A stretch of DNA of 22,327 nt, from the IMG/VR virus record IMGVR_UViG_3300042400_000803, positions 1 to 22,327 of that record; one strand, written 5' to 3'. Below the pieces are notes generated by a model. The model did not search any database. It had not been told where the DNA came from and saw only the letters and a program-made list of their open reading frames with translations. The position numbers and the translations under genes are program-made. Numbering within the stretch: position 1 is the first letter of the stretch; the number at the start of each line of letters is the position of its first letter. This DNA comes from a virus. Shown in pieces: positions 1 through 12,875 of the stretch.

Positions 1-35
1 TTTACAATGCAGCCCAAGGACAACTCCAATCTTAA
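1..35 (+). CDS. C-terminal end of an upstream gene (partial)
   Basis: Frame 3 is open from the window edge to a TAA at 33-35 and reads YNAAQGQLQS at its end. The stop lies 6 bases before the next ATG, the same tight packing as the rest of the + strand genes. Eleven codons are too few to identify a family. It is probably the tail of another virion gene in the same operon. Confidence 0.4.
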   Translation, partial: YNAAQGQLQS

Positions 36-41
36 ACCATC

Positions 42-917
42 ATGCCCGGTATTCCTCAAACTCTCGAAGTTCCGCCACCAGTAAGCGTCCAGACCATCCT
101 CTACGGCATCTATCAGGCCTTGGGCGGTAGTAGCGGTGGCGGAGGTGGAAGTGGAATTTCATCCATCCTCACGCCTCGCCTCATCTGGGTGGATGCGACG
201 AATGGAGATAACGCTACGGCAGTGATTGGACGCATGGACAAACCGTATGAAACGCTTGAGGCTGCGTATGCTGCCGGTGTCGCCAATGCGGTGGATTTTG
301 GCATCGTCTTGATGCCCAATGCGAACCCCTACACCTTGACCTTGGTGGCCGCATGGAACTCGCTTTGTGCTTCGTTGGTTGGCTACAGTGTCGCAGGATT
401 GACCATCGAACCGTCTGTTCGAGTGAATGTGGTGGCCTACCAAGCAGAGGCAACAAACGCCAACGGCGTCGATGGCTACTCTGGAGCCGTGGCCATTGAG
501 GGTCTTTGGCTTTACTTGCAAGCATCCGGGCAGGATGTTAATGCTGACGATGGGAACACTTACACCGCAGGCAACGGCGGCAGTTGGAGTGTGAGCGGAG
601 CTGGTCTTCTGACCGCTGATTTACAGGGCGGCAGTGGTAACGTTTCTAATGGCAGTGTCGTGAATGGCGGAACCGGCGGCGCGCTCACCCTGCTTAATGG
701 CGTGAAAACTTGGGGCGATGGAGTTTCCATCAATGAGGCCACCGGAGCAGGTGGCGGAAGCAATGGGAATCCCGGCACGCTGACTGCGGACAACTGCGAC
801 TTGCGGGTTCAATCAATTATTCCGGGCGGAGACGTGACTCTGGGCCGGTGTTCTTATACAGCAGGAGCTATAACGATAACCAACAACAAAGGCGGAAATG
901 CCGATTGGCCAGCATAA
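42..917 (+). CDS. Tail spike/fibre-like virion protein
   Basis: This 291-residue protein begins with a Pro-rich stretch and a Gly/Ser linker at about residues 29-38. It then has the segment around WVDATNGDNATAVIGRMDKP (about 49-68) followed by YETLEAAYAAG. This 'D..NGN.A..GR.DKP..T...A' pattern is common at the start of right-handed beta-helix domains in phage tail spikes and fibres. The rest is rich in Gly, Asn, Thr and Val, as expected for a beta-solenoid. No catalytic residues are recognisable. It lies just upstream of two other tail genes on the same strand. The start has no Shine-Dalgarno sequence. Role as a receptor-binding or tail-decoration protein is inferred from composition and position. 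Confidence 0.65.
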   Translation: MPGIPQTLEVPPPVSVQTILYGIYQALGGSSGGGGGSGISSILTPRLIWVDATNGDNATAVIGRMDKPYETLEAAYAAGVANAVDFGIVLMPNANPYTLTLVAAWNSLCASLVGYSVAGLTIEPSVRVNVVAYQAEATNANGVDGYSGAVAIEGLWLYLQASGQDVNADDGNTYTAGNGGSWSVSGAGLLTADLQGGSGNVSNGSVVNGGTGGALTLLNGVKTWGDGVSINEATGAGGGSNGNPGTLTADNCDLRVQSIIPGGDVTLGRCSYTAGAITITNNKGGNADWPA

Positions 918-4945: not shown

Positions 4946-5944
4946 ATGAAAAATTGGTCCGCAGCCGTTCACGAAACACAGGAAATTCGCCACAAAAAGA
5001 CCGTGGCCGACTTTGAATCCGAGCGTAAAAACCTCCTCGACATCATCTCGGAAAAAGACCAGCAGCTCAATACGGCGCTGGGCATCTGCTCAGAAAAGCC
5101 TAAGCCATCCAAGATTAAGGTTTCTCCAGATGCGGACGCAGAGGCCACCTTTGTAGCCGTTGCTTCTGACTGGCACGTTGAGGAAACCGTTGAGGGCAAG
5201 ACCATCAACAACCTGAACGAGTTCAATCTGGACATTGCTGAACAGCGCATCAACCGTTTCTGGCAGTCCATTGTTCGCATGGCTCAGATTCAGCGTCACG
5301 GAGCCAAAATTGACCGCCTTGTGCTTGTTTTAGGGGGCGATTTGATGACGGGCTACATTCATGAGGAACTGATGGAGAACAATGCTCTATCGCCTACGCA
5401 AACGGTTCTGTGGCTTCAAGATCAAATTGCCAGCGGTGTCGAGCTTTTGTCGAAGCATTTTGGGGAAATAGTAATTCCTTGCGTCTATGGAAATCATGGT
5501 CGCAACACTCGCAAACCACGACATGCCACAGGTGCCGCCAACTCCTACGAATGGATGCTCTACAAGACGATGGCGAAGCACATGGGCAGCAAGGCTGAAT
5601 GGCACGTTTCCGATGGCTACCACCTGCTTCTCGACCTCTATGGCAAGACCCTGCGCATTCATCACGGCGACGGATTGCAGTATCAAGGCGGCATTGGTGG
5701 TTTGACCATCCCAGTTGAGAAAGCTATTGCGTCTTGGAACAAGGGTGTCCCGGCAGACCTCGACATCTTTGGTCACTGGCACCAGAGTCAGCAGAACCCG
5801 AAGTGGATTTGCAACGGGAGTTTGATTGGATACAACGCTTACTCCGTTGTCATTAAGGCCCCATACGAACCACCTTCCCAAACGGGATTCATTTTCGACA
5901 AACGCTACGGAAGGACAGTCACCTTCCCGATCTTTGTTGGATAA
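4946..5944 (+). CDS. Calcineurin-like metallophosphoesterase
   Basis: This 332-residue protein has the ordered metal-binding motifs of the family: SDWH (74-77, D75 and H77), GGD (130-132), GNHGR (182-186), HHGD (239-242) and GHWH (276-279). These bind two metal ions for phosphoester hydrolysis. The substrate cannot be read from the sequence; nucleases such as SbcD and several nucleotide or protein phosphatases share the fold. About 45 N-terminal residues are charged and helical, possibly coiled coil, and are not part of the fold. It starts 2 bases after the lipoprotein stop, so it is in the lysis transcript. No signal peptide is seen, so it should act in the cytoplasm. Confidence 0.85.
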   Translation: MKNWSAAVHETQEIRHKKTVADFESERKNLLDIISEKDQQLNTALGICSEKPKPSKIKVSPDADAEATFVAVASDWHVEETVEGKTINNLNEFNLDIAEQRINRFWQSIVRMAQIQRHGAKIDRLVLVLGGDLMTGYIHEELMENNALSPTQTVLWLQDQIASGVELLSKHFGEIVIPCVYGNHGRNTRKPRHATGAANSYEWMLYKTMAKHMGSKAEWHVSDGYHLLLDLYGKTLRIHHGDGLQYQGGIGGLTIPVEKAIASWNKGVPADLDIFGHWHQSQQNPKWICNGSLIGYNAYSVVIKAPYEPPSQTGFIFDKRYGRTVTFPIFVG

Positions 5945-9565: not shown

Positions 9566-10282
9566 TTACCTCATAGGAATTGATCCTCCGACCTTGGCAA
9601 TTTCGTTTATCAAATATCTCTTGTGGCGTAAGCGAAGTTTTTCTCCGTAATGTGATTCAAAAGTCTCTACAAGGTCAAGAGACGGTATTCTCCAAGCCAA
9701 GAAACTAGACCAGATTTGCTCAAATTGTTTCTGAGTCCATTTTCTATCGCCTCCACTGCCATTGATGGCTGATTTCAGCCTCCTAGCCTTAGCTCCACTC
9801 TTCAAAATGATGATGGAGTTGATGGCGTCTTGGGGTAGCTTCAATGACCTCATTTTCCTGATGATGGTATTTAGGCGTGGGTTTTTCTGGCAGTTCTTCA
9901 AACCCATGATGAGCGGCTTGACAGATTCAGCCAAAGACGGTGATCGCAAATCAAGCCCCTCGATGTTGAAGGCTGGAATCGGCGTCTTTTTGCCCTTCTT
10001 TTTGGAGGCTTTTTCTGGCTTTGTCCCAAAGTGAAATTCATGATGGTGGGTATGGCACAGAATCCTCAAATCAGCCGTCGTCACATCGTAAATGTCCCGG
10101 TAGTTGTCGTGGTGAAACTCCAGCCTTTTCTTGGAGCCGCAAATCTCGCACTTTCGACCCACCTCTTTTGCCTTGGCCTTCTTCAGCGCCTTCCAGTGGT
10201 CAGATTTGAGGTAAATCTGCGCATACCATTCCTTCTGGCTAAGGCCAGAGGCTTCGATTTCTTGTTTGTAGCGGGGTTGCAT
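9566..10282 (-). CDS. HNH endonuclease
   Basis: This 238-residue protein has a zinc-supported HNH domain: RKCEICGSKKRLEFHHDNY (C45, C48, H57, H58) followed by LRILCHTHHHEFH (C76, H77, H79, H80) at about residues 43-84. This is the C..C..HH..C..H layout of HNH nucleases. A Lys-rich linker and a helical C-terminal part (about 95-238) with no recognised domain follow; this part may recognise DNA. It could be a homing-type nuclease or a DNA-packaging-associated HNH. It does not sit next to the terminase here. It is first on the - strand side of the divergent region. Confidence 0.8.
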   Translation of the reverse strand: MQPRYKQEIEASGLSQKEWYAQIYLKSDHWKALKKAKAKEVGRKCEICGSKKRLEFHHDNYRDIYDVTTADLRILCHTHHHEFHFGTKPEKASKKKGKKTPIPAFNIEGLDLRSPSLAESVKPLIMGLKNCQKNPRLNTIIRKMRSLKLPQDAINSIIILKSGAKARRLKSAINGSGGDRKWTQKQFEQIWSSFLAWRIPSLDLVETFESHYGEKLRLRHKRYLINEIAKVGGSIPMR

Positions 10283-10295
10283 TTGAAACTTTCAA
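10283..10295. promoter_or_regulatory. 13-base palindrome at the HNH start codon
   Basis: TTGAAACTTTCAA is a perfect inverted repeat (6-base arms around one C), immediately next to the ATG of the HNH gene at 10282. The half CTTTCAAC recurs at 10356-10363. It could be an operator or a small hairpin that limits translation. Confidence 0.35.
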
Positions 10296-10676
10296 CGGAT
10301 TGCGAGTTAGGGCGCGGGCACAGCTCGCCCCTTGCGGGGCGAAAAGCATTAAGTCTTTCAACTGGAAGCTGAGAAGTCCGAACACTGCCTACCGTGCTAA
10401 CGTGGGCTGGAGGCTCAATCCCTCCTCAATCCAGAGGAGCCACAACACTTCGGCGCTCGCGCAAACCTTTTACCATACTGGGACATGGTATCCGCAGCGG
10501 GCAATTCATCGCTCTGCGGTAGCCGGGTCTTTAAATGGCGTCTTTTCCGTTTTCACAGGAGTCCGCCACATCAAGCGTTTTGCTATCGCCGCCATTCACC
10601 TTACATTGTTCCCTTTCGGGGTTTATGGGGATTGAATAGCTTCTGTCAGGCGCAATAGCGTTGCCCGAAACGCAAA
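10296..10676. other. Non-coding, hairpin-rich part of the divergent region
   Basis: No convincing gene is seen. A + strand frame of 111 codons (from TTG 10300) has no start signal or recognisable product. Two - strand frames of 29 and 27 codons (10595-10506 and 10509-10426, overlapping as ATGA) are too short to call. Inverted repeats include TCGCCCC/GGGGCGA at 10325-10342 (loop GCAA, a GNRA tetraloop, on the - strand), a T-arm-like hairpin GGAGG-CTCAATC-CCTCC at 10409-10425, TACCAT/ATGGTA at 10471-10490, and CCGCAG/CTGCGG at 10492-10519. GGATTG (10297-10302) can pair with CAATCC (10427-10432), enclosing the first two. This suggests a structured RNA or a DNA control region. Confidence 0.4.
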
Positions 10677-10749
10677 AGGCCGACTGGTTGCAGCAGTCGG
10701 CCTAAGCGGGTTCCCCGGTTGGTCAGATCACTCCTGCAACGGGTGAACC
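10677..10749 (+). ncRNA. Candidate kissing-loop RNA element
   Basis: Hairpin 1 is a perfect 10-base stem (10677-10686 with 10694-10703) with loop GTTGCAG. Hairpin 2 is CACTC (10729-10733) with GGGTG (10741-10745), one G-U pair, and loop CTGCAAC. The two 7-base loops are exact complements. GGTT (10709-10712) can pair with AACC (10746-10749) to close hairpin 2 further. The G-U pair would be a C-A mismatch on the other strand, which favours a + strand RNA. It lies upstream of the 10814 gene. Hairpin 1 lacks a following T-run on this strand, so it is not a simple terminator. Confidence 0.4.
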
Positions 10750-10777
10750 TATTTGAATTCGACCCAACATTAACAAC

Positions 10778-10805
10778 TTGCCCTCACCCGCGCAAGTGAT
10801 ATTCT
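10778..10805 (+). promoter_or_regulatory. Candidate promoter for the 10814 operon
   Basis: TTGCCC (10778-10783), 16 bases, TATTCT (10800-10805), then 8 bases to ATG 10814. This is the first gene of the + strand run 10814-14339. The expected transcript would have almost no leader. Confidence 0.4.
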
Positions 10806-10813
10806 CCGAAATT

Positions 10814-11512
10814 ATGGCAAGTAGCACACTTTTCCTTTCGCGAAAGAACGGCAGATTCTTCCGCTACGACGACGTTTCTGCGGTGTCCCTTACCGGATCA
10901 ACCACGGCCTACGCAGGCGTCACGGGGGTCGATTCCACGGATGTAGTCACCTTTGCCGGTGCAACGCTGTCAGACGGCCTGCAAATCACCTTCACGCAGC
11001 TCACAGGAGGCTCCAACGTCACCACGAACCGGGTCTATTTCGCCCGAGACAGCTCCGGCGCTACCTGCAAGCTGGCCGAAACCCTCGGCGGCACTGCGGT
11101 CAACCTCGGCTCAAACATCACCTCTGGCTACGCGATCATCCAACGGGATGAAATCCGGGTCTGGTCGAGCGAGTTTCGGGATATTTTCACGAATACGACG
11201 ACTCTCTGGCCCATAACTACGGCACCCTCCGCAACGGCTCCCGGCTCATTTGTGGGCGCTGCCGCAGTCATCCCGAGTGTTTTCGCAGGGGGCGGCGCAA
11301 ACGCTATCACGGGAACTGGAGGCCTTGCGGTGGAGGGAACCACCGACCTGAGAGCCTCAGTCTCCGACGAAATCAATCATCAGCCCCTCCGGCAGACCTT
11401 CCTCGCCCGCACGCACTGGATTTTCACTATTGAGAATGGCACCCCCGCCTCTCTGGCCGCTGAATGGCAGACCGGCGATGTGATTGCTCCGTATCCCCCG
11501 AACACCGTCTAA
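10814..11512 (+). CDS. Virion-associated protein, possibly decoration or tail-tube type
   Basis: Start chosen at ATG 10814 instead of the in-frame TTG at 10778, which is more likely part of a -35 element. The 232-residue protein is Thr/Ser/Gly/Ala-rich. It carries ITFTQLTGGSNVTTNRVYFA followed by a CKLAETLGGTAVNLGSNIT-type segment, a beta-rich module I know from many phage structural proteins (V.FT.LTGG....Y.V......F.LA.T.GG). The C-terminal part has aromatic strands (THWIFTIENGTP). The stop overlaps the next start as TAATG. It is a likely virion protein of unknown exact place. Confidence 0.55.
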   Translation: MASSTLFLSRKNGRFFRYDDVSAVSLTGSTTAYAGVTGVDSTDVVTFAGATLSDGLQITFTQLTGGSNVTTNRVYFARDSSGATCKLAETLGGTAVNLGSNITSGYAIIQRDEIRVWSSEFRDIFTNTTTLWPITTAPSATAPGSFVGAAAVIPSVFAGGGANAITGTGGLAVEGTTDLRASVSDEINHQPLRQTFLARTHWIFTIENGTPASLAAEWQTGDVIAPYPPNTV

Positions 11513-12348
11513 TGGCCTCGAATTTCCAGCTACTCCCGACGCCAGACCCGAACGAGTTCATGTTCTCGGTGTCGGTGCCTGACCAAAAGATCAACCCGGA
11601 GCTGTTCCTGTCGCCCGAGAAGCCTCTTTTGCAGGCTGGAGTGACTCGCTACAAGGAGTTCCTTTGGGCTGTCAACGGTGAGCGCGCCAATGAGAAATGG
11701 GGCGACTACATCTATGTCTCCTGCTCCAAGGCTGGGGCTGGCTCCATTTCCTTCCTGTTCGGCAAATCAAAGACCGAGAACTCCAAGGATGGTTTAGGCA
11801 CCAAGAATAAGCCCTTCAAGGTTTTCCCGGACACGCAGAACTACACTTGGCCTGCGGTCCTTCTCGACCTCTACGCCATCGAGACGAATGCCTTCCCGCT
11901 GGCGATCAATAACGGCGCTAGTATCGTCACTACGCCACGTATTCTGCCGCGCTACAAGTTCATTCCAGAGGTCAACTACAACTCGACCATCATCGTCCGA
12001 CAGTTCCTTTCCCCGACGCCGTGGAGCGAGGCTGATTTGACGCATGAGCAGCCGGTGCCTACGGATGTGAATGGCTCCTACATCGGCGTTTCCATGGACT
12101 TTGTTCGCTGCCTGCATCCCACGGTTGTCTTTCCCGAGCAGCAATACACAGCGGAAATCATCGTTGGGGTGGGCGTTCAAAACCCTCCTCCGGGGCGCAA
12201 TCCGAACAAGACGATCATTCCGGCGACCAATTTCATCGACTGGGAGAGCTTCATCCTCCGCGACACGCAGCAGTATGTGAACGGCATGTGGCTACGCGAG
12301 CAGGTGGAAATCTTCCCGCCTCCGCAGCCTGAAGAGACGATCCAATGA
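11512..12348 (+). CDS. Hypothetical virion-like protein (278 residues)
   Basis: Start chosen at ATG 11512, overlapping the previous stop (TAATG). The sequence is a compact mixed/beta-rich protein with many aromatic and Pro residues (SNFQLLPTPDPNEFMFSVSV, later NYNSTIIVRQFLSPTPWSEA). No signal peptide or membrane helix is seen, and no family is recognised. Its stop overlaps the start of the Pro/Thr repeat protein (ATGA at 12345-12348). Position between virion-like genes suggests a structural role. Confidence 0.55.
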   Translation: MASNFQLLPTPDPNEFMFSVSVPDQKINPELFLSPEKPLLQAGVTRYKEFLWAVNGERANEKWGDYIYVSCSKAGAGSISFLFGKSKTENSKDGLGTKNKPFKVFPDTQNYTWPAVLLDLYAIETNAFPLAINNGASIVTTPRILPRYKFIPEVNYNSTIIVRQFLSPTPWSEADLTHEQPVPTDVNGSYIGVSMDFVRCLHPTVVFPEQQYTAEIIVGVGVQNPPPGRNPNKTIIPATNFIDWESFILRDTQQYVNGMWLREQVEIFPPPQPEETIQ

Positions 12349-12875
12349 TTACGACCGCAAACGGCACGTATGGCCCTGATGCCAGCCCGTATCAGTCCGC
12401 TCCCAAGGAATACGGAGTCGGAGGCCTGATTGCGAACCGCCAGCGTGGGTCTGACCAAGTTACCATCCGGCAGCAGGCTAGGCCGGTGGTGAGGATTGAT
12501 AACTCGTTTGACGCAACGCCATCGTTGCAGGTGGTGCCGATTCGAGTTGGGACGTATCTGTCCATTGTTGGCGGGGTGGTGACGTATGTGGGCGGAGAGC
12601 CAGAGCCTCCAGTGACGACCACGGCGGCTCCAACAACGGGAGCGCCAACGACATTGCCTCCGACAACTGTTCCGCCGACCACGGTTGCTCCCACGACCCT
12701 TCCGCCGACAACTTTGCCTCCGACGACCTTGCCGCCGACTACGCTGCCACCCACAACTTTGCCGCCGACTACGGTTCCGCCTACAACTTTACCGCCAACT
12801 ACACTTCCGCCGACGACTTTGCCGCCTACGACAGTTCCTCCAAGCACGGACCCTCCAACGACACCACCTCCGTAA
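12345..12875 (+). CDS. Mucin-like Pro/Thr repeat protein
   Basis: This 176-residue protein has an N-terminal domain of about 90 residues (MITTANGTYGPDASPYQSAP to VTYVGGEPEPPV). The C-terminal half, from residue 95 to 174, is 16 tandem pentapeptides, mostly PPTTL or PPTTV. Such a tail should be an extended, exposed rod. Runs of Thr next to Pro are the classic acceptor pattern for O-glycosylation. There is no signal peptide, so it is probably a virion surface protein whose N-terminal domain binds the particle. It ends right before a glycosyltransferase gene (TAA then ATG with no gap). Confidence 0.65.
   Translation: MITTANGTYGPDASPYQSAPKEYGVGGLIANRQRGSDQVTIRQQARPVVRIDNSFDATPSLQVVPIRVGTYLSIVGGVVTYVGGEPEPPVTTTAAPTTGAPTTLPPTTVPPTTVAPTTLPPTTLPPTTLPPTTLPPTTLPPTTVPPTTLPPTTLPPTTLPPTTVPPSTDPPTTPPP
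12627..12866 (+). repeat. 15-bp tandem repeat, about 16 units (PPTTx)
   Basis: The units vary mainly at third codon positions (for example ccg/cct for Pro, aca/acg/acc/act for Thr) while the peptide is constant, so selection is on the protein. Unit number may vary between related phages by slippage or recombination. Confidence 0.9.

Follow-up and report, generated by a model that had tools for sequence, protein, structure and literature searches.

Comparison with related phages shows the interval 10673–10754 of the window (the whole stretch of DNA that was analyzed, an entire IMG/VR virus record of 22,327 bases) to be the DNA of a structured leftward (minus-strand) RNA, predicted to hold a P1/P2 hairpin, a hairpin T and a 6–8-bp pairing between two segments, K and K′. 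On this comparative evidence we take the RNA element to be real, conserved, covarying and self-specific, once the original prediction is corrected for strand and second stem. At a probability of roughly 0.45, we tentatively read the element as a promoter-proximal phage attenuator RNA that serves the leftward operon and whose K-K′ pairing is self-specific. Its parts are the following.

10673–10754, minus strand: whole kissing element (covariance model R1, built without the window, 56.2 bits, E = 2.4e-16)
10677–10703, minus strand: hairpin T, with a 10-bp stem, in which five pairs are changed on both sides, and the 7-base loop K′
10687–10693 in plus coordinates, minus strand: loop K′ of hairpin T, CUGCAAC
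Directly 3′ of hairpin T, minus strand: terminator-like, U-rich tail, UUUUGCGUUU
10734–10740, minus strand: segment K, GUUGCAG, the partner of K′
10708–10749, minus strand: P1/P2 hairpin, present in the minimum-energy fold

The order on the minus strand is P1, K, P2, P1′, then hairpin T with loop K′, then the U-rich tail. P1 (strands GGUUC(A)CCCG and CGGGGAACC) encloses K, P2 and P1′, and in the window P2 reads GGA-GUGA-UCU, with a GNRA loop. K thereby sits in the P1/P2 junction and K′ in the loop of hairpin T, which makes their predicted contact one of the loop-junction pseudoknot type. Little sequence is invariant apart from P1, P2 and the base of T, and K is hypervariable; GGAGNNAUC around P2 is kept in most members of both subtypes described below. 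The spacing between K and K′ is near-constant (39–43 bases in subtype I, 43–47 in subtype II), as expected for pairing within one molecule, and together with the similar lengths of P1 and T it would let both helices lie side by side in one molecule, although K-K′ might instead pair between molecules.

Relatives were found through the terminase gene, a conserved promoter-like block, the first virion protein and two element patterns. The element is spread over about 30 distinct uncultivated phage contigs (the complete-looking ones about 60 kb), with one strong match to covariance model R1 per record, and falls into two subtypes: subtype I, the kind in the window, with ten distinct sequences, and subtype II, with about 20 more phage contigs. 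In L050 it comes after a gene of the same direction instead of next to a divergent virion gene, which counts against the attenuator reading. Two contigs of another clade (L025 and L028) have the same promoter block with a simple hairpin only, the kissing element being absent, and carry a replication-type gene there, as judged from its translation only. No Rfam family was matched by the element in the window or seven relatives at the gathering threshold, nor at a relaxed threshold in the window and the L050, L023 and L069 stretches. The blastn searches against phages and against plasmids gave no match, GTDB genomes held no relative of the first virion protein and no subtype I pattern, and no tRNA or tmRNA was found in the window.

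In subtype I, K and K′ are complementary over 6–7 bases in 10/10 distinct relatives (window included), through nine different pairs in which both sides change, so that complementarity is upheld by compensatory changes as in kissing-loop or loop-junction contacts. The pairs, K/K′ on the minus strand, are listed here.

Window: GUUGCAG/CUGCAAC
L026: AUUGCAG/CUGCAAU
L021 and L044: GUGGAGC/GCUCCAC
L019: GUGCAAG/CUUGCAC
L023: GGGAAG/CUUCCC
L045: GUAGAAG/CUUCUAC
L046: GUGCGAG/UUCGCAC
L050: GUGCUAG/CUAGCAC
L051: GGACUAG/CUAGUCC
Subtype II: GGGUGAGA/UCUCACCC, GGGUGGCA/UGCCACCC, GGGUGCAA/UUGCACCC and GGGUGCA/UGCACCC

When the nine distinct pairs of subtype I are taken together, pairing extends to 62 of 63 cells; shuffles average 40.6, and 0 of 20,000 came as high. 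In alignment A6, made with a covariance model that leaves K and K′ unpaired, the four columns in register in all members have 100% of cells paired and 4/4 changed on both sides; neither this share of paired cells nor the covariation score is equaled in any of 500 shuffles, and pairing drops to 28–55% when the register is slid. Since the shuffles leave relatedness in place, the argument rests on the slid controls and on the number of different pair types. The full structure (P1, P2, T and K-K′) has 94.7% of cells paired, with 11 double-change pairs versus 4.6 in shuffles; two pairs of P1 are changed on both sides, a rough count because some P1 columns of the window and L050 are misaligned in A6. 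In subtype II, where covariation was judged by eye, the first bases of K also lie within P1, which may make P1 and K-K′ mutually exclusive in part.

The original prediction had proposed two hairpins with exactly complementary loops in the window, and both are present. Hairpin 1 (10677–10703, AGGCCGACTG-GTTGCAG-CAGTCGGCCT, with 10 Watson-Crick pairs) is the sole perfect hairpin of at least 8 pairs (loop 3–12) across the window, the shuffle expectation for hairpins of at least 10 pairs being 0.23 per window. The second (10728–10746, TCACTC-CTGCAAC-GGGTGA) forms 6 pairs on the plus strand including one G-U, and the remark that this G-U pair forms only in plus-strand RNA is correct for this stem. 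With both strands scanned, only one pair of hairpins has fully complementary loops (5–9 bases, at most 120 bases apart), and a complementary 7-base loop pair is expected at 0.01 per window in dinucleotide shuffles. The proposed loop-loop (kissing) pairing is borne out: the covariation check suggested with it was run, the loops covary among relatives, and the reading passes its own refutation test. The 5-bp second stem fared less well, as it shows no covariation; its plus-strand version, tried as a conserved stem, has 80% of cells paired, no better than its own shuffles. The minimum-energy fold of either strand lacks the small second hairpin and prefers the long hairpin 10708–10749, and by comparison the conserved partner of loop K′ is the segment inside the longer P1/P2 hairpin, not the second small hairpin. 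The parallels drawn to plasmid copy control and viral RNA dimers gained no specific support; the one to riboregulators may still apply.

The plus-strand RNA of the original prediction is not supported, and three features all favor the minus strand. The minus-strand structure has 14 G-U cells versus 2 A-C cells, A-C being what a G-U pair becomes on the other strand. Most members cap P2 with GUGA, GCGA, GCAA or GUAA (the exceptions are L050, capped GCCA, and L021, whose P2 is ambiguous), and the 5′ hairpin of subtype II has a GAAA cap. Furthermore, a terminator-like T with a U tail is found on the minus strand in the window, L045 and L051, and L054 has a terminator-like site in the same hairpin. 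Wobble asymmetry, GNRA loops and U-rich tail are each moderate indications; jointly they are convincing, and a minus-strand RNA is most likely.

K and K′ change together, and quickly. No difference separates the window from L021 between the start of the aligned stretch and the end of the leftward −10 box; within the element their identity falls to 63%, versus 98.7% over the 300 columns after it. Likewise, L045 and L046 are identical up to P1, 70% identical within the element and 98.3% after it, K and hairpin T having changed together with the stretch between them largely kept. Complementarity is preserved in both of these near-identical phage pairs despite the divergence, and the K/K′ of the window and L026 differ by one compensatory pair. 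The L021 element resembles that of the distant L044 (86%), which indicates that exchange between phages also happens. Neither drift under pairing alone nor block exchange alone would seem to account for all cases, and the simplest reading of these comparisons is selection for new matched K/K′ pairs. With such rapid joint change, each phage would have a self-specific version of its own, and quick joint change of complementary segments amid near-invariant flanks suggests selection for specificity. Selection of this kind is known for plasmid copy-control and immunity RNAs; we know of none for such a leader.

The surroundings of the element, as they bear on its expression, are given below.

10767–10795, minus strand: putative leftward promoter, weak in the window (−10 TAATGT, 10772–10767; −35 TTGCGC, 10795–10790)
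10778–10813, plus strand: putative rightward promoter (TTGCCC, 10778–10783; 16 bases; TATTCT, 10800–10805; 8 bases; ATG at 10814)
10814–11512, plus strand: first gene of the rightward operon, with no PHROG or Pfam match; the marker used for finding relatives
10283–10672, minus strand: long, apparently structured untranslated stretch that separates the element from the HNH gene
9566–10282, minus strand: HNH nuclease gene

To the right of the element is a block that does not differ at all across phages in which the next gene shares only 55–78% identity, and we infer that this block holds two overlapping divergent promoters. Its layout is, rightward, TTGCC(C/T)-16-TA(TTCT or AAAT)-8-ATG and, leftward, TTG(CGC/ACA/ACG)-17 or 18-weak −10; relatives have TTGACA at the leftward −35 in the same layout. 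Promoter consensus hits were obtained rightward in L045 and L051 (TTGCCT-16-TAAAAT) and leftward in L054; in the window there was no consensus hit, and its leftward promoter is a poor consensus match. Since the −10-like hexamer, in both versions of the rightward promoter, lies 8 bases ahead of the ATG (10814 in the window), the virion-operon mRNA is apparently nearly leaderless. The overlapping promoters also contain a CTTG-N11/12-CAAG palindrome (CTTG-N12-CAAG in the window), which could be an operator.

From T to the first leftward gene there are about 300–480 bases, highly conserved within each group and different between groups. In the window this region (10283–10672) shows 96–99% identity across the first 300 columns when the closest relatives are compared, and it aligns with the distant L033 with some compensatory pairs; its fold has ten compensatory pairs at near-zero covariation energy (four sequences), which is suggestive of structure, and it may be a separate further RNA. 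Downstream of the element, L050 has a tRNA-Met (4979–5052), and L023 has a tRNA-like match (33–137, minus strand; RF00005, 33.9 bits, above the Rfam threshold) in which a 49-base stretch replaces the anticodon region. Around this match is a long inverted repeat (formed by GAGAGYAGAGTTCAGCRG and the complement of it) that L023, L019 and L050 share 3′ of the element and whose two arms show matching changes from phage to phage.

In the attenuator reading, the RNA would start near 10760, a few bases ahead of P1, at the inferred promoter that overlaps the rightward virion promoter, and the element would form about the first 90 bases of the leftward transcript. Hairpin T would act as an intrinsic terminator, and K and K′ would pair co-transcriptionally as a loop-junction pseudoknot, altering polymerase read-through into the long leader and the small-gene operon (10282–8037). 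The G+C-rich hairpin followed by a U-rich tract that marks an attenuator is found here, promoter-proximal with respect to the putative promoter. We have fair confidence that the element specifies a minus-strand, promoter-proximal RNA, and low confidence that hairpin T terminates and that K-K′ modulates termination. Indeed, several members have an interrupted T-tract, and the bases 3′ of T are able to pair with those 5′ of it, so that the role of T may be purely structural. Beyond T lies a long structured region, which implies that transcription would often continue past T.

The same features could be read in other ways. A trans-acting, type-specific RNA is unlikely, if still of some weight: the RNA of about 90 bases ending at T would be released, and K or K′ would pair with the corresponding region of a nascent transcript from another genome, leading to superinfection discrimination. 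Near-identical phages that differ only in the element, with K and K′ changed together, would fit this, since in an immunity-like RNA fast paired change would create new immunity types, and hairpin T does look like a terminator; however, no further target of K or K′ recurs within the following 500 bases, there is no Rfam family match, and lysogeny is not indicated: a search confined to tyrosine integrases found none in 15 records, which weakens the lysogenic-immunity reading. The phage immunity RNAs P4 CI and P1 C4 are short structured RNAs ahead of an operon, with loop pairing, premature termination and type specificity. The element is like them in its size, its position ahead of an operon, its loop pairing and possibly its premature termination and type specificity; it differs in matching no Rfam family, in having both complementary segments within one element, 40 bases apart, and in coming with no integrase found. 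Rather unlikely, too, is a self/non-self recognition RNA of lytic phages, in which the lineage-specific K/K′ would be a lock-and-key under diversifying selection, pairing between RNA molecules (as a homo-oligomer or in trans with the leader of a co-infecting relative) and telling own from competitor transcripts. The phi29 prohead (packaging) RNA, also a small RNA of a phage, has two loops that complement each other and are able to vary in sequence, as in the element; the element nevertheless comes from a different phage type, terminase and location and lacks an Rfam match.

Likewise unlikely is a large "ornate" RNA in which the element would be the 5′ module, followed by the 300–480-base region after it, and which would multimerize via K-K′ in the manner of GOLLD and ROOL. 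The downstream region is conserved and structured, with the tRNA-Met of L050 and the tRNA-like match of L023, and the topology is that of the intermolecular ROOL J6/8-L8 and GOLLD J13/15-L20 contacts: like those RNAs, the element is phage-encoded and has a covarying junction-to-hairpin-loop kissing pair, with tRNAs nearby in some members (PMC12286853). Unlike them, it matches no GOLLD or ROOL family model at Rfam thresholds, its core of covariation, about 90 bases long, would head the transcript, and its downstream region differs between groups; a ROOL-specific search gave no match, with its controls silent too, and the near-constant K-K′ spacing fits pairing within one molecule. A riboswitch or protein-binding leader with the pseudoknot as ligand pocket is improbable: the promoter-proximal position, pseudoknot, terminator-like hairpin and the shared GGAGNNAUC would suit it, but sequence invariant beyond P1, P2 and the base of T is scant, K is hypervariable and Rfam has no match. 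Most doubtful of all is a plus-strand RNA element or a DNA-level cruciform (an operator or recombination site). The second stem has its 6 bp on the plus strand only, inverted repeats are symmetric in DNA and the element turns over as a unit; against this, wobble asymmetry, GNRA loops, the U tail and the placement at the inferred leftward start favor minus-strand RNA, and a cruciform would leave the complementarity of K and K′, located as they are in separate hairpins, without use.

The HK022 put RNA is a conserved antiterminator of two hairpins that binds polymerase. By position and size only, the element of the attenuator reading can be compared with HK022 putL, which lies just 3′ of a leftward phage promoter and controls termination through about 70–90 bases with two hairpins, kissing not being mentioned (PMC9378689). 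Put suppresses termination (PMC9378689), whereas T of the element looks like a terminator and the conserved feature is loop complementarity. The element stands out in that Rfam has no family for this structured phage RNA and that one of its tertiary contacts covaries with unusual clarity.

A tie between the element and one HNH gene is ruled out, because the nuclease differs or is missing in relatives; being exchangeable or absent, the adjoining gene is not part of the element. The slot after the RNA region holds a nuclease gene in the window (9566–10282), L020 (6077–6706), L019 (9438–10166) and L049 (2248–2580), of the HNH, MUG113/T5orf172 (GIY-YIG-type) or homing-type families, as if it were a landing site for homing endonucleases. 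On the other side, within the window, 12345–12875 encodes a protein with a long TTLPP/TTVPP repeat and a weak Pfam hit to Extensin_1.
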